64,000 nucleotides of DNA, from the NCBI RefSeq assembly GCF_000189635.1, contig NW_002476250.1, forward strand, positions 124,001-188,000. Reading direction: 5' to 3'. How positions within the stretch are numbered: the first letter of the stretch is position 1; each line of letters starts with the position of its first letter. This DNA comes from Tetrahymena thermophila SB210 (lineage: Eukaryota > Ciliophora > Oligohymenophorea > Hymenostomatida > Tetrahymenidae). Shown piece after piece: positions 11,595 to 64,000 of the stretch. A model generated the notes under the pieces. It did not search any database, was not told the DNA's origin, and saw only the letters and a list, made by a program, of their open reading frames with translations. A program made the position numbers and the translations under genes.

Positions 11595-14589
11595 ATGAGT
11601 TTAGTGATGCAACCTCTCGTTATCAAAGATGAGGTTAAACAAGAAAATGTCATCATCGAATAGCCTAATCCTGTCAAGATTCCTATTCCAGTCGATACTC
11701 AACTTGTTTCTTAAGCTAAACAAATCGCCTAAACTTTATCTGCAGCTGCTACCTCTACTTCTTCTGCTTCTTCTTTAACTTAGCAAAATACTTCTTAGTA
11801 GGGTTCTTCTGCTTCTATTTCCAATTAATAGACTACTATTTCTGCTCCTACCTAAAATACACAACAGACCATTAAAGCAAGCATAATTTAATCAACTTCT
11901 GCTACTACTCCTACTCTCAAAACCTAGAAATCTTTCAACCCAACTGAGAGCTACTTGTCTAACTTTACTGCACCTCCCGTTAATCCTACTTAAGGTAAAA
12001 ATTACTTCTATTTATTTTAAAATTAATTCATCATTAGTAGCATTTCAATCTAATTTCTAAAATTTCAAAAATAAAATAGGAAACACAAATGTCATCGTAG
12101 GTTCATCCAGTAGTCGTATAGGATAGAATGGGATTGGATCATCCTCTATTTTCTCTTCACTTGCAACTACATTTAAGCCCTCTTAGAATACTACTACACA
12201 GGCTATAATCGCTCCTTCAAATAATACCTCTACCTCTTCAGGTGTTTAAGCAAATAATTTAGGAGACTCCGCTGATGTAGCAAATTTCACTAACCACATT
12301 TTCTCTTAGCCTTACTTATTCTACTAGAGCAATAATATGAATATCCCTCAATTAGAGGCATCCATGGATGATTTGTATACCGTCTTTACCTTCATCGTTC
12401 CAAACAAACCATACCCAAATAACTCTACAAACTCCTAGTTACAAAAAAATAATAGTAGCAGTAGTAATAATAATAACAACAGCAATAATCCTAGCTCTTC
12501 AGCAAATGGTAGCTCAACTAGCACAAACGCAGCTACTGGAAATGTAAATACAACACCATTGATTAACAATAGCACTAAAGCTAATGGTGCCTATACAAGC
12601 TATAACTCATCCAACAATTTAAGTTCCTTATCAAGTAACTCTAATACACCTATAATTTAGCACTCTTCACTTTTAAATGCCTCCTCTAACTTAGCAAACT
12701 CAAATAATACAACAACCAGCAGCATATCACCAAAAGGATTCTAAAAGAGCGTCGATGGATCTAGTAAGTCACACAGAAATAGCTTTAGCAGCGCAACCAC
12801 TACCCCTAAAGTTCCTCACTTCGGACTCTCTGGGTAGAATAAAGAAGAAAGAAAGTCAAGCGCAAAAGGCTAGAGTCTAGTTGATATTATTAAGCAGCAA
12901 TGCACTGAAGACGAAAGTAAATTAATTATTTTATCAAATAGATCCAAAATCCTATCAAAATCTTCCCTTTCACTAATAATACCCCCAGAATATATAATGC
13001 TTCATAACTTGATTCGAAATTACTATTTTGATTTTTAATTCTATTAATACTCTTCTTCACTTTTTTCTTTCTACTTTTGATTCGCTCACTCACTCAATCA
13101 ATCAATCACTCACTAATTCATTCCTCCCTTTTTAAAGGCGCTTAGAAACAATTTAAAAGTTGAGTTTCTTTTTTTATTTTTTATTTTTTTTCCCTTATTT
13201 TTTCAGTCACTTTTTTTTGTTTTTTCAATCATTCATCGTCATTATCTCCATCTTAAAAATAACTTGCCACTCATAAAAATTTTGTCACTTAAAAAGGATA
13301 ATTTTATAAAAAGACCCTACCAACTGCTTGCTTTTACCATTATTAGTTCCACAAATTTTTCTTCACCATTTTATAAATCTTTAAAATTTTTTCATCTGCT
13401 TAAAAAATCAGAAATATATTTTGAAAGGGGATTCATCATAATTTTTCATTAAATTTGTTTCCATCTATTCTAAATTTTTTTTTTTTTTCAATAAATAGAA
13501 AGAAAGAAATCTGATTCCATTCCAACATTTAATAACTTGGGATCTGGCTTCAAAAGTAACTTCAATTCATCGAGTAACTTAGGCAGTTTGACCCAACTTC
13601 CAATTGGTGGATTAAGTTAAACATCTATCACCAGTTTACTCAACTTATCATTGAATCAATTAAATAATAATGCTACTAACAACCCAAGCGGATTTAATCC
13701 AGTTAATTCTACTAATTTTGGTTTAAATAATTCTAGTTAAAATAATAATGATATTATGGAAAGTGAAGAAGCTGCCGCTATCGCATTTTTACAGTAATAA
13801 ATTAAGCAAGAATAGCAATAGTAAGCTGTAAAGCAAGAACTTCAAATACAAGAGAGTTAATCATAGCTAAATGCCATGGCTGATGAAGAGGAAGAAAAAG
13901 TAGTCATGCCCGATTCTAATGATGATGACGATGAAGAATGCGAAGAAGAAGCTGAAGATGATGACAAAAAATCTGGAGAAGATTCAGGTAATGACGAAGA
14001 TGAAGAAGCTCGTTTGATCCGTGAAATTAAGGAAATGAAAAAGAAAAAAGCTGGAGGATAGTCTATGTTTGCAAAGAATTTCAAAAAAGATGGTAGTTTC
14101 CTCTTTGGTGGCGAAGGTTAAGATGGTGATATCTTTGATTTTTGTGAAGAAAAGCTTGGTGGCGGAAGCAAAAAGTAAAAGAAAAACGGCAGTGGAGGAC
14201 ATAAAAATAAATTTGATACTAAAAACTTAGTTAAAAATTTCCTTAACTCCTTCATTTCTTTTGCTCATCACCCTGATGAGGAAGCTGCTATCATAGATGT
14301 TTTAGGCTTTGAAAGTAGTCCTTAACTCAATGACTTCCGCAGCAATCTCCGTAATTTTTTCAAAGGAAAAAAATTCAACCGTGTTCTCTTAAAAGAATTT
14401 ATCTTTGAAGATTTATTTAGACCTCTCTTCCTCTTCTTCCTTGAAAACAGAGCACTTAATTGGATTGAAAGTGGAAGAATGAAAGATAAGGCCTCTCATT
14501 TACGTGCACTTAAAAATTTCATATTCGTCTGCTAGCATTACGATTAAATTAAATCATGGCGCTTTAGATACAATTTTGTATAAAACTGA
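11595..14589 (+). CDS. Low-complexity protein with acidic stretch and compact C-terminal domain, unknown function
   Basis: Three exons (11595-11994, 12080-12916, 13499-14589) give 775 residues ending in TGA. The N-terminal two thirds is rich in Ser, Thr, Asn and Gln with poly-Asn/Ser runs and is probably disordered. Around 13880-14040 lies a strongly acidic block (DDDDEECEEEAEDDD) followed by a Lys-rich patch (EIKEMKKKK). The last 130 residues change character, becoming folded-looking and aromatic, with motifs such as FLNSFISFAHHPDEEA, FEDLFRPLFLFFLENRALNW and HLRALKNFIF. I do not recognise this domain. The second intron, at 582 nt, is long for this genome. Acidic plus basic tracts fit a nuclear protein, but that is inference. 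The start is the first ATG after a long A-rich leader. Confidence 0.8.
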
Positions 14590-18916: not shown

Positions 18917-19933
18917 ATGAATCACTAATAGATTTTAGATAAGCAGAAAGTTAGGACAAGAGATAAATACTTACTGAAAGAAAAATATGAAATATAGCCA
19001 ACTAAAAAGGTGAAAAAGGAAAGACCTAAAAAATTCACTGATTTGGAATAAAAGTTGCATGATATTTAAGAATAAAATATGCCAAATGTGGATCCAAATA
19101 AGTTGTTTGATACTCTCAAAACTGCAGATTTCTCAGAATTTTTGAAGGAAGATAGTTAAAGATAAGAATGCCCTAATTGCAAAAAAAAGAGTAAAATTTA
19201 TTGCGCTGATTGTTTAACTGTCTTATGCGAGCCCAGTTAGATTCCAAAGGTTTAACTTCCTTTCAGACTAACAATTGTTCATCACGATTAAGAAAAAACA
19301 AAAAAAAGTAGTGCTCTACCAGTCAAGTTATTGATAGAAAACAACGAAGAAAATTGCAAAATAATTCATTACCCATCTCATGAAATACCTGAGTTTGATC
19401 CTGACACTACTTTAATTTTGTATCCCCATAAAGACTCAACTAGAACTTTAGATTTAGATTTAGAAACAATGAAGCAAATAAAAAATGTAGTTGCTATTGA
19501 TTGCACTTGGAACCAAACTAATAGCATATTAAACAATTTCACTAATCCAAAGTACAAGTATGTTAGATTAGAAGAGTATAATACCACATTTTGGAGATAC
19601 TAATTCCACTAACCTAACTGCTTGGCAACAATAGAAGCTATTTACTACTTTTTCAAAGAATTTGATTGCAATTTCTCTTCAAAATAAATCAGCTAAAACT
19701 ATGTATACGATGGCAAATATGATAATTTAATGTTTTTTTATCATTGGTAATATGAAATGATTTAAAACCATTATAAGTATAAAACAAGTAATACCTTTAG
19801 GAAAATTAAAGATTATATTAAGTACAATGAAAATGAACAAAAATAGGAAGTATAAAATGAATAAAACATTGAATAAAATTAGTAACAGTAAAATAACGAA
19901 AATAGTAATACAGAAGGGAAAGACAACGAATGA
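18917..19933 (+). CDS. DTWD1: DTW-domain tRNA-uridine aminocarboxypropyltransferase
   Basis: Single exon of 338 residues ending in TGA. The DTW-domain family transfers the 3-amino-3-carboxypropyl group of S-adenosylmethionine to tRNA uridines to make acp3U. Visible are an N-terminal zinc-like cluster (CPNCKKKSKIYCADC, near residues 90-105), the stretch DTTLILYPHKDS, the signature DCTWNQ near residue 195 (Asp-Cys-Thr-Trp in place of the usual DTW), and CLATIEAIYYFF, matching the family's LSTIEA segment. The zinc-like Cys pairs and order of motifs fit DTWD1 better than DTWD2. The C-terminal 40 residues are a Q/N/E-rich tail. The start is the first ATG after the upstream gene's 268-bp spacer. 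Confidence 0.88.
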
Positions 19934-20974: not shown

Positions 20975-22807
20975 ATGGATTTCAGCTGTCTTTATAAATA
21001 AAAAGAGGTAAAATGTTAGATTATTTCAACATTTTAAAGTAAAAGTCATGACGTATTAACAAATGAATTCGATTATAAAGGTATCTATAAAGATATAAGT
21101 GGTATCAGTAATCTTTTGACTACTTTATAACTGATAGTGTGTAATCCTGTTAGTTTAGATAAGCATGACAGCTAAAATAAAAATAAAGTTGCGGAGACTC
21201 TGTCTAAATTTTTTAATATGGAGGGATCTTAAGGTAGTATTATTTACTTTAATGGTCATGGAAACAATAATGGTGATTGGATTTTAAGCAACAAAGAAGA
21301 TAGAGACGATTTAGATTCACTATATGATACAGATCAAGTGATGGAATTTAATGAACTATATAACTTATACTGGAAATAAAGAAAAAATGCTGAATAAAAT
21401 GATCATTTATTTTTAATTATTGACTGCTGTTCTGCTAACAAATGGGTTGAAAAAGCTAGGAAGTTCTAAGATATATCAATCATTACAGCTCAATAACAAA
21501 TATATTAAGATAAATATGTAGCAAAAATTTAAAGAAATATTGGCTCATATTTTACAATCTATTTCTGTAATACATTTAATCCAGTATAGGAAAATCAATA
21601 AAAGCTGAAAGATTGTATTTCAAAGAAATTCTTAAAAAGTATATGCCCAAAAGCATCAAAAAAATGCCATTAATAATTATTTTGCAAACATAATCCAATG
21701 GAAATTTACTGTCATATGCCTTAGCCATAAATTCTGAAGAGTAAATTTAATTTTTAAATAGATGCATAACTTAAAGAATGGTCAGAACTAGATACAATCA
21801 GAAAAAATCTTATAAATCAATACCATGATAATTCTACTGAATATTTAGAAAATATATTTAGCTTATACAGAGGTAAGAATAGAGTATCAGTGTTAGAAGA
21901 ACTAGGATATGACTAAGATGAATGTATTAATCCCTATTCTGTCCACTTCGTAAATATTATCCTTTATTTAGATGAAAGGAGCTTTAAAGATTTAAGTACT
22001 TATTCTGAAAATCAGAAATAACAAAGCAGAAAAATAACATTTTAATTTGATGATCTATATGATTAGGCTAAATAAGATTATTTTAAAAAAATGATAGGAC
22101 TAATATCAAAAAGAGATCATGTTTCTATTGATATGCGCTACTGCTAAATTAACGATGACTAATTTAAAGTAATAATTGATAGCATAGTTTAAAATTCAAA
22201 GGGTAACTTAAAAACGCTTGACTTAAATGTTTCATTCAATTAGATTACTTAAAAATCAATCAAATACTTGTTCTAAAAAATTTCAGATGTAAAATTTTAG
22301 AATTTAGAGAATCTAATTTTGAATTTTGCTTGGAATTAAATAAATGATAATGATATTACTGAAGAAGAAGTTAAAATTCCAGAATTAAATCAATTAAAAT
22401 CTCTTTGCATTTCTTTTAATTAAAATACATTTTAAAACTGTAATTTAGTAAATTAAATATTCTCAAAAAATCTATTAAATATTAAAACATTGCAATTGCT
22501 ACACATTTGCTTAGAAAATTGTGGTATAGAAGATAAATTTATTTATACTTTAAAATCATTTATTTTAAAAAATAAAACACTAAAATTTTTTTATTGCAAC
22601 TTGAGGTAAAATAAGATTACTGCTGAGGGTGGCAATACTATATAATAAGTATATCGTTTAGCTTAAATTAAGGGTAGATATCATATTTAATTATATGGAA
22701 ATAAGTACCTGGCAGAATAAGGATAGTAAAGTATCAAAGCAGTAAATATTAAGGAATAGGATAGCTTTTTAGAATTATTTCGTAGTATAAAATATTATAA
22801 TAAATGA
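20975..22807 (+). CDS. Caspase-like peptidase domain fused to leucine-rich repeats (copy 1)
   Basis: Single exon of 610 residues ending in TGA. The N-terminal 180 residues look like a clan CD caspase/metacaspase fold. Strand segments lead to IIYFNGHGNNNGDW (catalytic His in GHG, near residue 95) and about 50 residues later to HLFLIIDCCSANKW (catalytic Cys in DCC, near 155). The middle carries a Cys/His-rich stretch with KKCHQQLFCKHNP near residue 235. The C-terminal 240 residues carry LRR-like units such as GNLKTLDLNVSFNQIT and LNQLKSLCISFNQNTF. The next gene has the same architecture. There is no signal peptide, so it is probably cytosolic. Possible roles are regulated proteolysis or cell death; neither is shown by the sequence. 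The His/Cys pair is intact, which argues for activity. Confidence 0.8.
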
Positions 22808-22854
22808 CTTTATTTTTTTATATTTTATTTTAAGTTTTTTAATTTTGCACATAG

Positions 22855-22876
22855 TTGTTTGTTTGTTTGTTTGTTT
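22855..22876. repeat. GTTT simple repeat
   Basis: Five GTTT-type units in a row lie just downstream of the first caspase-LRR gene, in the short spacer before the second. It is one of several 4-nt microsatellites in this window. Confidence 0.7.
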
Positions 22877-23074
22877 TTTCGTTTAGTAATGGTTTAAACT
22901 GTTTTTATTAGATTGTGTTAGAAAGTTTAGGAGTTTAGATTTGTGGTAAAAATATCCAAAAAAAACTATTATTTAATAGCTTAATAAAAATATCTCATTC
23001 ATTTATTTAATCACTCAAATTAATCAACAAAATAAATAATTAATAATATTCTAAACTTTTTAATCATTAAAAAA

Positions 23075-24889
23075 ATGATCTAAAGCTATTACAAGTATCT
23101 AAATCAAAATGATAGGTAAAGCTAGCAATATGAACTAGCGAAATCAAAATATTTAATTGTAGCTGCATCTAAAGACGCGTCTATTAATTAGAAAGGATAA
23201 CATGATTTTGACTATAAGGCATCCTAAAATGATACAGATGAAATGGGGCTATTATTTAAGATAAAAAAGATTAAATCTCCTAAATAAATAATAAATTTCA
23301 ATAAACTTTCTTTTGAGACAATTTAAAATCTCTGTAGAAGTCTAATTGGGCTATTTAATTAGCCTGATTGCTGCGGTAGTCTCGTATATTATAATGGACA
23401 TGGAGACAAAGAGGGAAATTGGTTACTCTAATGCATGAATGATTAAACTTAAAAAATTGAATTAGTCAGGTTCACATTAAGTGATTTATTGACTCTTTGG
23501 GAAAAGCGTGCTTCAAATATGAAACACCTATTCCTGATTATGGATAGTTGCTATGCTGGCAAATGGGTAGAAAGTTTAAAAAACTAAAAAAATACTTCTG
23601 TTTCTATTTTATCTGCTTGCAATTCTACAGAGCCAACCTTTTTAATTGATGGATTTGGTTCTTATTTTACAAACTATTTGGTTTGGACATTTGTTGAGTC
23701 GTTTGCTAGTAAGCAGAAGTATTTGCTACCTCACAAAAACTTGCATCCTTGCTCATATAGTTATGATTATTCCATATTAAAATCAGTATTTAATTTTGAA
23801 ATTAGCAAGGATATAACAGGCTGGTAAGATTTTGATTAAATACATTAATTTATTATTGAAGCTCCAAAAAAAAAAACTCAAGGCGAGTTGCAGAGCTTAC
23901 TATAACGAATAGGATTCCCTGAAGACTGCTTCATAAAATAAGAAGAGTTAGAAGAAGATCATATTAATCCATTTTAAGAATAATACTTGGTGCTAAATAT
24001 ACCTATAAGCTTAGACTTTTGCTAAAAAATGTTAGCATTTTCGCAATAAAGATCTCTATTTTAACAAAAGTTGTCTTTTAAGATTGATATGGAGAAATCA
24101 AAAGATCCAATTGCACTATAAACAATATTAAAACAGATTTCGCATTTAGAATATATATCTATAAATGTCTCAAGTTGCTAGATTGACTAAAAATTAGCTG
24201 CTACAATAGCTAACTGTGTTGTTTAATATTAAAATGCAATAAGTTTTGATATAGATTTGAGTTAAAACGAGCTTAAAGGAGAAATATTTTAAGTTTTTTG
24301 CATTATTTTTACAAAATTATGTAAGACCCTTAAAGAGTTATTTATAAATTTTAATTGGAATTACATCTAAAATGATAATATTTTGCCTCTAATTAATGTT
24401 TTTTAAAGCTAGAAGACTTTAGAATGTCTTTCTTTAGGTTTATCATAAAATGATATTGGAGATTAAAGTATGGCTAATGTTTTTTCAGAAATTCGCTAAA
24501 TGGTTAAATTAAATTAGCTGGTACTTCATATTTCAAATACCTAAATTGGAAATTAATCTCTAAAGTCATTAGCAGAATCACTAAAAAGCCTTAAAAACAT
24601 TGAAGGTGTTAAATTGATTGCAAAATGGAACCAATAAATATCAAGTGAAGGTGTTATGTATTTAGTATCTGCAATAAAAGGCATTACAAATCTTAAAGAA
24701 TTAATTTTAGATTTTGAGTTCAATAGCATAGATGATTAAGGGGCCAAATAAATCATAGATATGCTAGATTCTTTAAAAAATATAGAAAATTGTGAAATTA
24801 ATGCTGAGGCAAATCAAATTTCAGAGTAGCTTTTACAAGAAATTAAAAATCGTCTAAAATAAAAAAACTACTAACAAAAAAAAATATGA
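23075..24889 (+). CDS. Caspase-like peptidase domain fused to leucine-rich repeats (copy 2)
   Basis: Single exon of 604 residues ending in TGA, 267 bp after copy 1 and in the same orientation. The catalytic His lies in SLVYYNGHGDKEGNW near residue 110. The catalytic Cys lies in LFLIMDSCYAGKW near 155, which is closer to the canonical metacaspase DSC than copy 1. The C-terminal half holds better LRRs, including LKELILDFEFNSIDDQG and LECLSLGLSQNDIGDQ. The two copies share domain order, spacing and length but are far from identical, so the duplication is old. A divergent substrate specificity or a receptor-like sensing role for the LRRs is inference. There is no NTPase domain between the two parts, unlike animal or plant NLR proteins. 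Confidence 0.82.
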
Positions 24890-34960: not shown

Positions 34961-36448
34961 ATGGAAGAAGAAGAAGAAAAATTTACTTTAAACGAGCTGA
35001 TGGGAAAAAATAAAGCAGGCGGTTTAAGCCTTAAAAATAGTCAAAAGAAAAAATAAAATTAAAAAAAATAGTAAATCTAAATATGTAATTTGTAAAATAG
35101 TTTAAATGCTGAGTAGAATTAATAAATCTAAGATTCTAATAATGAATCACTAGATAGATACTTAAAAAGAGCATTTATTAAATGCAAAACTAAAAAGGAG
35201 AGGAAAGAAATGAAAAAATTGATAGAATAAGAAATAAAAAATGTTAGTTAGGTATCAAGTTTATCAGATTTTGAATGGGATAATAAGGAATTGCCACTTT
35301 TAAGCAGAGAAGATATTGAAAAAAGGCTATTTAATGATCCAAACGCAGTAAATTAGTTGATTAATCCATCAGAATAATAAATAAAAATAGTAGATGCTAT
35401 AGTTAAGAAAATAAAAGAGGAGTTATTAGGTAATAGCATAATTAATTAATAATAGACAGTAAATGAATAAAATATTACAAATTTATAGGAATCTATCAAT
35501 TTAAATCAATAGTAAAACATTCTTAAAAGCAACACTTGCACTTAAAATGAATAAAAAATTTCAAACAAATTAACAACAAATAATTTATAAAATGATATGG
35601 AAATCGAAGCTTATGAAAGCAATAAATATTTTGATGAAGATGATTTTGATGTTGAGAGAATGAAAGTGCCTATTATTGGAACAAGTACAAAGCTTGAAAA
35701 AGAATATCTTAGATTAACCAGCTATCCAAAAGCGTGTGATGTTCGTAGTCCAGAAACATTAGTCAAGAGTTTTGAGTTTATCACTAATAAATATGCTAAT
35801 AAATCTGAAGATTATCATTATTTTTAAAGCCAATTTCGTTCAATTCGTTAAGATTTGCTTATTCAAAATATTAAAAATGACTTCACATTTTAGGTACTAG
35901 AAGTAAATGCAAGAATATGCTTAGAAAATTATGATATTCAAGAATATAGTCGATGCTTAGGCTAATTAATTTGGATGTATAAGGAGGTGGATGATTTAGC
36001 AAAAACTAATTACAAAGAATTTATTTATTATAGGTTAATATAATTTATATTTGAAGACAAGAAAGATAATCTTCTTGCCTGTCTTCAAGAAATAAATTAA
36101 GACGAATTGCTATTATCTAATGAATTTGAAACAGCTATGAAATTTTAGCATGCTATATCTATGGGAAATGTTAAAGGATTCTTTAATCTTTTTAACAGTA
36201 CTAAAGATTATGGCAAATATATAATGAGTTTATATATTAAAAAATGGAAAATATGGGGCATTAGAATAGTATGCAAAACCTATGGCCCATAAGCCATTAG
36301 TTTGTCGCTTTTCTAAAGTGTTTTTGGGTTTGAATCAATCGAAAAAACAAAAGAAGAGCTTAAGAATCTCAACTGCGTTTTAGATTAAAATGAAGAAAAA
36401 ATCCTTGTTAAAGACACAATAATTTAAATAGATTAATAAAAAATTTGA
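34961..36448 (+). CDS. THP3: SAC3/GANP/THP3 family (LENG8-like) protein
   Basis: Single exon of 495 residues ending in TGA. Family members form the PCI-like scaffold of mRNA processing and export complexes (THP3-CSN12 or TREX-2). The N-terminal 210 residues are charged and Q/N-rich, with a basic helix (KCKTKKERKEMKKLIEQEI). The domain begins at EYLRLTSYPKACDVRSPETL, near residue 245, and continues through YHYFQSQFRSIRQDLLIQNI, FTFQVLEVNARICLEN and YSRCLGQLIWMYKE, which are the hallmark blocks of the SAC3/GANP region. The order KEYLRLTS...VR...SIRQDL..Q is closer to THP3/LENG8 than to SAC3 proper. The domain runs to about residue 470 and lacks the long C-terminal extension of SAC3. The role in splicing-coupled nuclear events is from family knowledge. 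Confidence 0.88.
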
Positions 36449-50715: not shown

Positions 50716-51771
50716 TCACTATTTACAATTTATGCAAACTTCATTACTTTCTTCATTTTATTTACAATACAAGAAAAGACAATCTGAGCATACATAAGCT
50801 ATATCGGAATCCATAGGTGTATTATGACAAGAACAGTTTACACGAAACTGTACTTTTTCATTAATAGCAGGACGAAAAACTGGATTTTTGGTTAATTATT
50901 ATTCTGGTTTGGCTAACATATCACCACTAGTAAGCATTAGTATTGAAATGTAATTAAATAAGTCAAAGGGATTGATAGAAACTCTTGCACTGGAGCTACT
51001 TTAACTTTTTTTATCTTCCTTTTTATCATCTTTTTTTTAGTCTTTTCTATCATCCTTTTTCTCTTCTTTTTTTTCATCATTTATTTTTAAATAGAATCCT
51101 TATGTCAAAGAGCATAACTGTTTTAGATAATCCTATGTGTTATCAGATAAGTTAGCTTCAGGAATCTCAAACACAAATATCTTTACTTTATGTTTAATAG
51201 CTGTTTCTATTGCACTCATTAAGTTAATGTAAGAACTTGAATGAATTTCGGAAACAGTAAACATTAAAATGGAAGAATAATATTTTTCATTTTCAATTTA
51301 ATTAGCAAGTTTTTTTTCTAACTAAATTCCAACTTTATTTATTTTGCAAAGTGATTGCGTTAATGCAGGGATGAGTCTTGAATAATTGATGTTATCAGCC
51401 ATATTTTGCTGCATAAATTCAATGGTCCTCTTTTGAATTCTTGCTTGAATCTCTGAGTAATCTAGATTATCAATTCTATTTTAATCACTATCCTCATCCT
51501 TAGAAATATTAGAATTTATAGGAAAAATCATTTTTGACTCCCTTGAGTTTGTTAAGTAAATGTAGGCACTATTATATATACTTTTAATCAGATGTGAATT
51601 TAAAGTTTAAGAAACTAGAACGAGCAAACCCTCTATACCAAGCTGTTTTTTTTGTAACCAAAAACATGTATTCAAATCCACAATTAAATAGAGATTATTT
51701 CCTTTATACTATCTCATTTTTACATATGGATTATCTTAATCAGACTTATTAACAGATCCCCTTGAGCTCAT
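50716..51771 (-). CDS. TFB4: TFIIH core subunit p34/TFB4
   Basis: Single exon of 351 residues from ATG at 51771 to TGA at 50718-50716. This subunit scaffolds the TFIIH core for transcription initiation and nucleotide excision repair. The N-terminus has the von Willebrand A-like start NNLYLIVDLNTCFWLQ, near residue 26. Next come SSILMFTVSEIHSSSYINLM and KVKIFVFEIPEANLSDN, then DYLKQLCSLTQGFYLKI. The C-terminus holds the family's zinc cluster VNCSCHNTPMDSDIAYVCSD followed by CLFLYC and CINCK. A Lys/Asp/Glu-rich insertion (EEKKDDRKDQKKDDKKEDKK) between the two parts is unusual. It sits where other species have a short loop. Confidence 0.94.
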
Positions 51772-52360
51772 TTTTAAGTTTCTACTTACTAAATTAGAAT
51801 TAAAAATATTTTGTTAGACAAAGTATATTAATTAATTATGTATTTTTTTATAGTTTAGTTTGATAGAAATAATAAAAATAAATATCTAATTAGATAGCTA
51901 ATTGTTTCTAGTAAATTTAATATAAATCATTTCAAAGAAATTCATAAATTGCGGTAAAACTATTTTTAATGTTTATGCCATTTTTCAAAAATTAAAAAAC
52001 TATTTTAAAATTTTAATGAAATTTATTTGAATTGTTTAACAGTTAAACTGTTTTTATTAACATTAGAAATAAAAATAAATTCTATTTTTGATCAAATATT
52101 CTCAAGCTAAAAAAAAAAAAAATTAAATCTAGCAAAATATTTTTCTTAAATTATACTGGTTTTTTAAATAAAGAGATTGAAAAGCTTGTAAACATTTTTA
52201 ACTGAAAAATGAGTTTCAAAATATTTCTACATTCGTTACTAACTAACATTTCCATATTATATTGAATTTTTAAAAATAAAATAATTATTAAATTATTTTC
52301 AAATCAAATAAAAACACATAATTTGTGCATAAATTTTATACTAATAAATAAATTTTTTCT
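51772..52360. other. Intergenic
   Basis: About 590 bp between two minus-strand genes. It contains a run of 14 A near 52110-52123 and otherwise plain A/T-rich DNA; it should hold the TFB4 promoter. Confidence 0.5.
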
Positions 52361-61900: not shown

Positions 61901-64000
61901 AGTTGCTTCAATATTTGTTTCATCATTTTAATTTAAACCATTTCTATTTGTTTCAAGCTTAATATTTGTTTACTCCTGTTTTTATTTTATTATTTACAAA
62001 AATTTTTTAATTGATGATTTGTAGAAAAAAATCTTAATAATTGCCAAAAAAAATAGCTTATTATAATAAAAAATATAATGCAGCTATTAATATCTTTCAT
62101 TCATTTTAGGAAAAAGTTATCGAAAAGTTAAATTTTTACATTTTATAAAAGCAAAAGCTACCTTTATCTTTCATCTTACTAAACATCAGTTTTCAGAAAC
62201 AGTTTTTCATCTTCAGAAAGTATTTAGAATGCATATTCTAAAAATTTAGTATTTGTTATTGTATCCTAATTTTCTGTACAAGGACCTTAAACAAACTCAG
62301 TCAGGGTATTAAAACATTATTTAATTGTTTTATAAGTTTCCTTAGAAACTCTATATGAAATAAGCAACTTAACTGTAGTAGAAACAAGATCATATGAATT
62401 TTTATTACTGATTTATTTTCGCATGTAATTTTGTAAGTCTTAATTATGATTCAAACACAGTAGTTAAAACAATTTCAGAATTTTGAGAATCATTTTTTCT
62501 GAGTTCTTCCTTCCAAACAAAGAGTTTTTAGTAATCTGAGCTTGAAAAATCCTGTTTACTTTGGCAAAAAATTTTTCGCTAGCTTAAGATCCTAAAAAAT
62601 ACTCATAGATAGTTTTTTGAACTGACACATTACCTCCTTTAAGCATCAAATTCATAAACTTAAAAAGAGAATTTCTAAATTAAAAATTTAATTTAATATT
62701 AAAATAAAATGTATTCTTTTAAATGACAAATTACAAATATTCAGCGTTATTTTCACACTCTTCCCATATCAACATGATTACAATTTTAGAAGAATTCAAC
62801 CTGTCCAATTAGTCTTATCTTTCTTATCTAATTTTAGTTTGTTCATTTTTTTAGATTTTTTAACTACTTTATTTAAACACATCCATCAAATTTTCATCTT
62901 CTTCTTAAATAGAAAATGCATTTTTGATTATATAATTCATAATTTTCATCACGAAGATAACACTTTTCATAGGTACATTTTTTTATCTCCAAAATTCAAT
63001 AAATTTAAGTATTTTAGAAAGAATGTCGTCAGAAGTTAAAATAATATCTCTCTTTCTTTATTGATTAGGAGTCTAAAACATATTTTAGATCTTCAATATG
63101 CTTTAGCAAAGAATTTTCTTTTCATCTTTTAAAATAGATTTAAATCGTACATCTTCTTACAATTTTTTTTTAAAATGAAGCCAATATTCTACCATATTTA
63201 TATTTCTTACTGTTTAATCCTTTTACTTTTTACTTTTTGTTTCTTTTGGTTCTTCTTCATTTATCATCGTTTTAAAGCTCTTTTTCTTTAACCTATTCTT
63301 GTTAGGTAATAACTATAACTCATCATCATTTAACTCATAAAATTTATCTGAGTTGCTATCTAAATTATTTTTTTCGCCCATAATGTTAAAAGGGATTTAG
63401 AAATCGTAATGTTTAGATAAAACTCTTAATTGTTTTCCCCTATCATTTTCAAGTAGATCTTCTTATTTGAAATTCAAAACCCTAAAACACACAAATTAAT
63501 TATTTATTAACATTTTTCTTATAAATTGAATATTTTACTTATCAAGAGAGTTTATAAAAGTATAGGCAAACTTATAGAGCTTCTTACGTTGATCTATTTC
63601 GTTTGAATTTTCAGAAAATAATAGATCTTTCAAATAATTTTCTGAATAATAATTTATTAATGGCAGTAAATTATCTATTAAATAGAATTTATATGATTCA
63701 GAATATGTCTAAGCTCTTTCTAGTTTCATAGTTTCAAACTCTACTATTTCAACAATCAATTTAGTGTTTTGTGGAAGGGTTTATGCAAACTCTTTCGAAC
63801 TTGACAAGAAAAGAATCAAATCAATGATAGCCGCATTAACTTTGATGTTCTATTCAATCACTTGAATGTCTTTAATATTCATTTAACGGTAGCTAACAGT
63901 TCTTTCTCTTAAGTATTTCAATAGCTCTAAAGCTGGTATAAAATAACTCACTTTCATTATCTAGCTTTGCTCCATTTCGTCACTCATTAACCTAGAAATT
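58951..64000 (-). CDS. ITPR: Inositol 1,4,5-trisphosphate receptor, C-terminal part (continues beyond window)
   Basis: This is the pore and regulatory end of an IP3-gated calcium-release channel. Exons traced are 59088-58951, 59369-59160, 59565-59420, 59780-59619, 60833-59867, 61008-60910 and 61227-61058. The next ends at 61300, and further exons run past 64000. Family marks include LTEFVQGPCTENQ (RIH-associated domain, near 62268-62307) and IEIVRNGCLQTISFPKMPLC before the first membrane helix. Channel helices include FVGIFVMYNHLWQRISFYL and FVMLGLFAHPFYFCGLLIDM; the last one, NIVLAHVIIYIFGGIIID, is followed by NCFICGFDR and HIRQEHYMWNYIFYMAY, the C-terminal zinc-finger and EHxxWNY hallmark. 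The filter region is divergent (see findings). The final 60 residues are a Lys/Gln-rich coiled coil. Location is probably ER, alveolar sacs or contractile vacuole membranes. Confidence 0.93.

Follow-up and report, generated by a model that had tools for sequence, protein, structure and literature searches.

Leucine-rich repeats (LRRs) and a caspase-type domain have been found in one polypeptide before. The LRR-caspase hybrids of amphioxus, in which LRRs are joined directly to a caspase domain with a QACXG motif, are described as a possible direct link from pathogen recognition to apoptosis (PMC2575513). Bacterial conflict systems are reported to contain caspase domains with variable C-terminal partners (PMC7159879, PMC8195603). 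Metacaspases are well known in other protists (PMC3077326), and Tetrahymena and Paramecium were among the genomes surveyed for PF00656 proteins (PMC5982838). No paper on a ciliate caspase-LRR fusion was found by title or start of the abstract among the matches listed from the open-licence PMC literature. Here, we analyzed a 64,000-nucleotide stretch of Tetrahymena thermophila SB210 DNA (contig NW_002476250.1, positions 124,001 to 188,000; hereafter the window), which carries two adjacent genes, gene 1 and gene 2. Both predicted proteins consist of an N-terminal clan CD peptidase-like domain and a C-terminal LRR array of the ribonuclease-inhibitor type. We consider it probable that they go back to an old tandem duplication and are intracellular cysteine peptidases with a caspase fold (clan CD, C14-like) under LRR control, in which the LRR half binds and the peptidase half cuts. 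While an LRR-caspase fusion has already been published for amphioxus, the Tetrahymena pair is, as judged by its motifs, a fusion with a different type of active site.

In the ciliate code (table 6, with TAA and TAG read as Gln), the window contains 98 open reading frames (ORFs) of at least 150 amino acids (aa), many of them overlapping; translation of the same 64,000 nucleotides with table 11 yielded no ORF of that length. The two adjacent ORFs proposed in the initial annotation were reproduced exactly under table 6. They are stop-free and arranged head to tail:

20975..22807, + strand: gene 1 ORF, 610 aa (table 6), peptidase-like domain and LRR array
22889..24889, + strand: gene 2 ORF, 666 aa (table 6), probable true start at 23075 (M63)

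The G+C content of gene 1 is 24.1%, compared with 18.2% and 17.3% in its flanks. For gene 2, codons 1-62 of the ORF (22889-23074) have a G+C content of 17.2%, three intergenic pieces have 17.3-18.8%, and the remainder (23075-24889) has 27.3%, which places a step in composition at 23075. Because 22889-23074 has the base composition of intergenic DNA, translation of gene 2 probably starts at M63 (23075), and the annotated start at 22889 is likely 62 codons too early. Both genes appear to be single-exon genes, to judge from the uninterrupted ORFs and the end-to-end homology. ORF length itself is weak evidence, because the longest stop-free stretch in 300 AT-rich Markov copies of the region reached 580 codons (median 326). 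We rejected chance ORFs on homology rather than length: the two proteins are collinear, and each of them alone matches clan CD peptidase profiles.

The peptidase-like domains were delimited as follows:

21008..21760, + strand: gene 1 clan CD (C14-like) peptidase domain, about residues 12-262 (hhalign, NF047832, PADLOC)
23141..23803, + strand: gene 2 clan CD (C14-like) peptidase domain, about residues 85-305 (hhalign, NF047832, PF01650)

In a Pfam scan, gene 2 matched PF01650, a clan CD peptidase family (C13), with E = 6e-5 and 23.0 bits at a cut-off of 22.8. NF047832 (caspase_w_EACC1) matched both proteins (E = 2e-5 for gene 2 and 7e-4 for gene 1), and the PADLOC caspase profile matched gene 1 (E = 2e-3). 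All library matches at E < 0.05 over the peptidase half were to peptidase families; a match of the gene 1 peptidase half to the non-peptidase NudI (E = 0.96) was at chance level.

For a comparison at the profile level, bacterial genomes were reached via seven of the eight loci that match a DNA pattern for D-x-C-Y-x-G-K-W (see below). The 31 bacterial candidates comprised 30 of 35 NF047832 matches from 198 genomes of one phylum and one PF00656 match. Four were empty or fragments, and 16 of the other 27 were chosen by eye. The 11 left out were considered partial, degenerate, or near-duplicate, although L067, one of these 11, is almost complete and has both motifs, and some of the 16 kept (e.g., L070 and L071) are partial. 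Against these 16 C14-like domains, a profile of the Tetrahymena pair scored 95.9% in hhalign (P = 6e-9), with GHG placed on GHG and D-x-C on D-x-C, and controls with one reversed and 29 column-shuffled profiles gave at most 0.26%. An 11-sequence subset of the bacterial set resulted in 95.1%, and the single domains of gene 2 and gene 1 reached 94% and 87%, respectively. Among 81 whole ORFs, gene 2 ranked first (93.0%) and gene 1 second (73.1%), and the third scored 0.88%. This background consisted of the 54 window ORFs of at least 200 aa, the pair included, and the longest frame of 27 genome loci, with sequences cut at 1000 residues. The 27 loci (L004-L030) came from the 30 loci matching gene 2; L001 and L003 hold the pair, and L002 was left out. 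In the multiple alignment, gene 2 also shares the second half of the caspase core, which reads SVSILSACNSTEP then GSYFT in gene 2 and GVSILTASRSSEP then GVFT in the bacterial domain L065. The peptidase-like N-terminus claimed initially is borne out by these profile matches, the hhalign score, and the first two ranks, and the alignments place the domain in clan CD as C14-like. We use "C14-like" instead of C14 and leave the domain unassigned because neither protein reaches the Pfam C14 model (PF00656).

The candidate active-site residues are located at the following positions:

21254..21262, + strand: gene 1 GHG motif, residues 94-96, candidate catalytic His95 (aligns with gene 2 H171 and the bacterial GHG)
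21422..21430, + strand: gene 1 DCC motif, residues 150-152, Asp150 and candidate catalytic Cys152 (aligns with gene 2 D219/C221)
23231..23233, + strand: gene 2 Asp115, candidate S1-pocket acid (aligns with the ND motif of bacterial C14 domains)
23396..23404, + strand: gene 2 GHG motif, residues 170-172, candidate catalytic His171 (motif and alignment)
23543..23551, + strand: gene 2 DSC motif, residues 219-221, Asp219 and candidate catalytic Cys221 (motif and alignment)

His and Cys are separated by 57 residues in gene 1 and 50 in gene 2, in agreement with the approximately 55 residues noted originally. The C14A hallmark QACxG is not present in either protein, which carry Asp-Cys-Cys (gene 1) and Asp-Ser-Cys (gene 2) instead. 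The residue two positions ahead of the Cys is Asp in both (D150 and D219), not the Gln of caspases. In the metacaspase TbMCA2, the Cys is Cys213 and the His is His158. In caspases, the Gln before the Cys and two Arg bind the P1 Asp of the substrate, whereas in TbMCA2 the equivalent loop carries Asp211 and helix 1 carries Asp95 (PMC4357240). Both elements of such a C14B-type acidic S1 pair were found here, namely the Asp at Cys minus 2 and an Asp aligned to the helix-1 position. In gene 1, the latter is Asp40, identified as the counterpart of gene 2 Asp115 by the pair alignment alone and therefore less certain in position. The Asp two residues ahead of the Cys leads us to predict cleavage after Arg or Lys, that is, a basic P1 specificity.

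In clan CD, strand 3 ends in the catalytic His and strand 4 in the Cys (PMC4357240), and the two lie next to each other in a six-stranded alpha/beta fold. AlphaFold was run on two-row alignments for both proteins. The resulting low-confidence models place strand 102-107 before H109 and strand 151-157 before C159 in gene 2 (M63 numbering; add 62 for the ORF), and strand 88-92 before H95 and strand 145-150 before C152 in gene 1. The His and Cys would thus lie at strand ends, as the clan requires; their order is clear from the sequence, and the strands come from the models. Neither of the refuting outcomes named in the initial annotation, profile hits to a non-peptidase family or a predicted fold with His and Cys apart, was observed, the latter in models of too low confidence to judge the distance.

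The two genes are collinear, with 25% identity across 560 positions (E = 6e-27 in a single comparison). Identity is distributed unevenly, as determined by counting seven segments over gene 2 residues 85-660 with gap positions left out. The Cys block (12/17 identical) is the most conserved of the seven, and the GHG block has 10/21. Together, 22 of 38 positions (58%) are identical in the catalytic blocks versus 121 of 494 (24%) elsewhere (Fisher p = 2.7e-5); the blocks were picked around the motifs, so the test applies to these regions and not to blindly chosen ones. We interpret gene 1 and gene 2 as an old tandem duplication in which both His-Cys dyads, as aligned, have been kept. Both the age of the duplication and the retention of its dyads had been claimed beforehand, and both are supported, together with conservation above background at the catalytic blocks.

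The C-terminal halves contain the second shared module:

21950..22696, + strand: gene 1 LRR array, about residues 326-574, approximately nine strand-helix units with one helix missing (predicted secondary structure, Foldseek)
23987..24883, + strand: gene 2 LRR array, about residues 367-665, nine to ten strand-helix units (predicted secondary structure, Foldseek)

The repeat period in gene 2 is 30-31 residues (481, 511, 541, 571, 602). The Pfam LRR models stayed under their cut-offs (LRR_6 with 22.0 and 18.2 bits vs 23.4; LRR_14 with 20.8 vs 40). Model confidence was higher in the LRR half, mostly 46-75, and fell at the C-terminal ends. Among the Foldseek matches listed for gene 1 were NLRP1, NLRP3, and ribonuclease inhibitor (E from 2e-4 to 6e-4), and among those listed for gene 2 were NLRP3, NLRC4, and axonemal LRR proteins (2e-4 to 1e-3) as well as RanGAP (3e-3). 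Over both models, the listed LRR proteins had E values of 1e-4 to 1e-3 and RanGAP 3e-3 to 6e-3, with low TM-scores. Strand-helix repeats, period, and Foldseek matches confirm the LRR array of the initial annotation. The models suggest a solenoid of the ribonuclease-inhibitor type, which does not imply an immune receptor. A nucleotide-binding domain between the two halves had been denied, correctly as far as our searches go: GxxxxGK[ST] and GK[ST] (P-loop) motifs are absent from both proteins, and a Pfam scan at E up to 5 detected no nucleoside triphosphatase (NTPase) domain, including NACHT and NB-ARC.

The locus can now be set beside the described systems. The amphioxus hybrids likewise unite LRRs and a caspase-type domain in one chain but carry QACXG, whereas the Tetrahymena proteins have D-S-C-Y-A-G (gene 2) and D-C-C-S-A-N (gene 1); the peptidase is N-terminal in the latter, and the amphioxus proteins go by the name "LRRs-caspase" (PMC2575513). 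With the bacterial EACC1-associated, C14-like caspases, the pair has a core in common that consists of GHG, D-x-C, and, in gene 2, S-I-L-x-A ... F-T. Bacterial caspases are also described with variable C-terminal domains, including superstructure-forming repeats, after the caspase domain (PMC7159879). Unlike the EACC1-associated proteins, the pair is eukaryotic, ends in LRRs, and scores far under the NF047832 cut-off. Metacaspases of types I and II feature a zinc-finger or proline-rich prodomain or a long p20-p10 linker; the pair has none of these and is not matched by PF00656. The pair shares with the metacaspase TbMCA2 the Asp at Cys minus 2 and an Asp aligned to Asp95 on helix 1 (PMC4357240). 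NLRs such as NLRP3, NLRC4, and NOD2 have a C-terminal LRR of the same type, and the best Foldseek matches listed for the pair include NLR chains. The pair differs in the absence of a NACHT/NB-ARC NTPase and in having the peptidase in the same chain, whereas NLRs are described as recruiting it (PMC2575513). The comparison to an NLR without its NTPase switch, drawn in the initial annotation, fits the architecture, but membership among NLRs fails because the defining NTPase is absent.

Within Tetrahymena, a published expansion of LRR genes, discussed as serving the recognition of bacteria, includes young genes that are arrays of 90-bp exons (PMC6564038). The pair shares the 30-residue LRR period corresponding to such exons but, unlike the 90-bp-exon groups II and III, is intronless (PMC6564038). 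Its LRR arrays lie inside uninterrupted ORFs, without 90-bp exons and phase 2 introns. On exon structure alone, the pair fits the oldest group I of that family (PMC6564038). A term search of the main text of the same paper found neither "caspase" nor "peptidase" (PMC6564038).

We searched the genome (101 Mb, 445 contigs) for related genes. A 139-residue fragment of a T. thermophila axonemal protein (PDB 8th8) is identical to this genome at 138 of 138 aligned residues, across an intron and with its first residue unaligned, so that the source is T. thermophila or nearly identical to it. With the peptidase domain as query, the pair was the only match at E up to 10; relatives more diverged than the two genes are from each other could escape this search. 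The whole gene 2 protein had 53 matches at E <= 0.001, two of which are the pair itself. The remaining 51 are spread over 30 contigs, in some cases with several per gene, and all of them fall in the LRR half, beginning no earlier than residue 386. PF00656, NF047832, and one bacterial caspase matched nothing in the genome; the same searches also missed the pair, and therefore they do not exclude other divergent caspases. Beyond this genome, we searched plasmids and phages by tblastn with the gene 2 domain as query and obtained no match at E up to 1. A pattern scan derived from the two-row alignment returned 79 matches in viral contigs and 59 in genome contigs, none of which was confirmed. The DNA pattern for D-x-C-Y-x-G-K-W hit eight loci in genome contigs, with a motif-bearing frame in seven and none in L048. 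Those seven frames included no caspase-like one: six have 34-71 residues, and one of 518 residues lacks an upstream HG. The pair profile produced two weak matches (E = 0.002 and 0.005), in the p10/linker half, among 398 genomes of one bacterial phylum.

Other clan CD candidates do occur in the genome. Four legumain-like (C13) genes form two tandem pairs by exon grouping, on contigs C10 (401533-405421) and C13 (516172-519890; loci L031-L042), and show DHG and E-A/T-C-ESG motifs; they are further candidates for protease activities in Tetrahymena. A weak Peptidase_C13 match on contig C437 (73589-73783; 20.6 bits, under the cut-off) possibly marks another legumain-type gene. The sole CHAT-domain match found lies on contig C339 (107715-108179, L090), with E = 7e-12, over the cut-off, and C-H-G and N-A-C-H motifs. 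It is another caspase-fold family in a ciliate. A CHAT identity for the peptidase domain of the pair was set aside on motifs and hhalign.

According to the reading that we favor, the LRR surface would bind a partner or ligand, binding would join two peptidase domains or lift an inhibition, and the peptidase would then cut after Arg or Lys by means of its His-Cys dyad. Gating by the LRR is part of this proposal, and we infer the intracellular location, the catalytic activity, the basic P1, the LRR regulation, and any substrate of the pair. An Arg in the linker is common to both proteins (R340 in gene 2, R303 in gene 1) and could, speculatively, be a site of self-processing. A more specific version, possible but less likely than not, is a single-chain, NTPase-free sensor-protease: an LRR-gated, metacaspase-like ciliate enzyme with an origin separate from that of the amphioxus LRR-caspases. 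Its LRR would itself trigger dimerization and self-activation, and the two diverged paralogues would read different signals. The architecture resembles a sensor and a protease in one piece, which makes the pair testable candidates for regulated proteolysis. Should the protease be gated by its LRR, this would be a second origin of the amphioxus-type fusion, with a different active-site type. Our searches of the genome brought up no C14-like peptidases besides these two, and both are joined to an interaction domain. As the genes are adjacent, both can be removed together, so that the role of a ciliate caspase-fold enzyme is directly testable.

Several results weigh against a pair of active, LRR-controlled peptidases. 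The NF047832 scores of 24.1 and 19.2 bits are far under the curated cut-off of 140, PF01650 dropped to 21.8 bits on gene 2 in the genome search, under its cut-off of 22.8, and PF00656 was absent for both proteins in the Pfam scan at E up to 5. No peptidase was retrieved from the PDB by sequence searches with either protein or with the pair profile. The mean AlphaFold pLDDT (the model confidence) was 46.0 and 43.7, with block means of 22-54 in the peptidase half, and no caspase or peptidase was among the Foldseek matches listed for these low-confidence models (50 of 1038 and 50 of 652 rows). Of the four S1 residues of TbMCA2, Cys92 and Ser156 are not conserved in the pair; by our reading of the alignment, their counterparts are Ser112 and Asn169 in gene 2 and Ile37 and Asn93 in gene 1. 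In gene 1, C-Y-A-G has also lost its Gly and the p10 stretch its Glu, and this protein may be a weak or inactive peptidase. The LRR half resembles axonemal and cytoskeletal LRR proteins as well. In one effector position of bacterial systems, moreover, approximately 70% of the caspase domains are reported to be inactive (PMC7159879). These points lead to the main rival, which we regard as rather unlikely: a pseudoprotease or scaffold that has kept the caspase fold as a binding module and has a structural role like that of LRR proteins of cilia and the cytoskeleton. Matches of the LRR half to axonemal LRR proteins, those of Tetrahymena among them, and to CARMIL and RanGAP would suit it, as would the departures of gene 1 after the Cys and the frequency of inactive caspase domains in that one position of the bacterial conflict proteins (PMC7159879). 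Yet both copies have retained the His, the Cys, and the Asp before it at an overall identity of 27%, and a scaffold offers no obvious reason why the Cys block should be the most conserved segment.

An LRR-caspase receptor for immunity or food sensing, which would recognize intracellular bacterial products and trigger proteolysis, appears unlikely. The best fold matches listed include LRRs of NLRs, and the amphioxus hybrids and the Tetrahymena LRR expansion have been discussed in terms of recognition (PMC2575513, PMC6564038); but we detected two copies, intronless and unlike the young 90-bp-exon LRR genes, where an arms-race receptor would be expected in higher copy number. It is very unlikely that one or both genes supply the caspase-like, inhibitor-sensitive activity recorded for programmed nuclear death in conjugating Tetrahymena (Ejercito and Wolfe 2003; Kobayashi and Endoh 2003, cited in PMC4021357). 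The reading is attractive in that such an activity is reported and protists are said to lack caspase homologues (PMC2829475); the pair are also the only C14-like peptidases that our searches detected. However, the Asp before the Cys predicts a basic P1, where caspase substrates have Asp, the four legumain-like genes and the CHAT-like gene are present in the genome as well, and divergent caspases may exist beyond the C14 family searches, which missed the pair itself. The least probable alternative is that the peptidase domain is a divergent legumain (C13) instead of C14-like. The PF01650 match to gene 2, just over the cut-off in the Pfam scan (23.0 vs 22.8 bits), fell under it in the genome search, and the motifs GHG and D-S/C-C differ from the DHG and E-A/T-C-ESG of the four legumains. 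In hhalign, the pair scored 0.78% against these legumains versus 95.9% against the C14 set, an uneven comparison given the thin legumain profile (Neff 1.6); as a scale, the four legumains reached 24.6% against the same bacterial C14 set.

Eighteen other window ORFs were scanned with Pfam; 12 had no match at E up to 0.01, and six had matches over the cut-off. Upstream of the pair, at 18917-19933, lies a gene for a DTW-domain protein (E = 1.5e-19) with an additional zf-B_box match under the cut-off. Elsewhere in the window, matches to PEPCK (524-1579), DUF4441 (13756-14589), SAC3/GANP (34961-36448), Tfb4 (50716-51981), and RIH_assoc (RyR/IP3R homology associated; 62101-63999) were observed.

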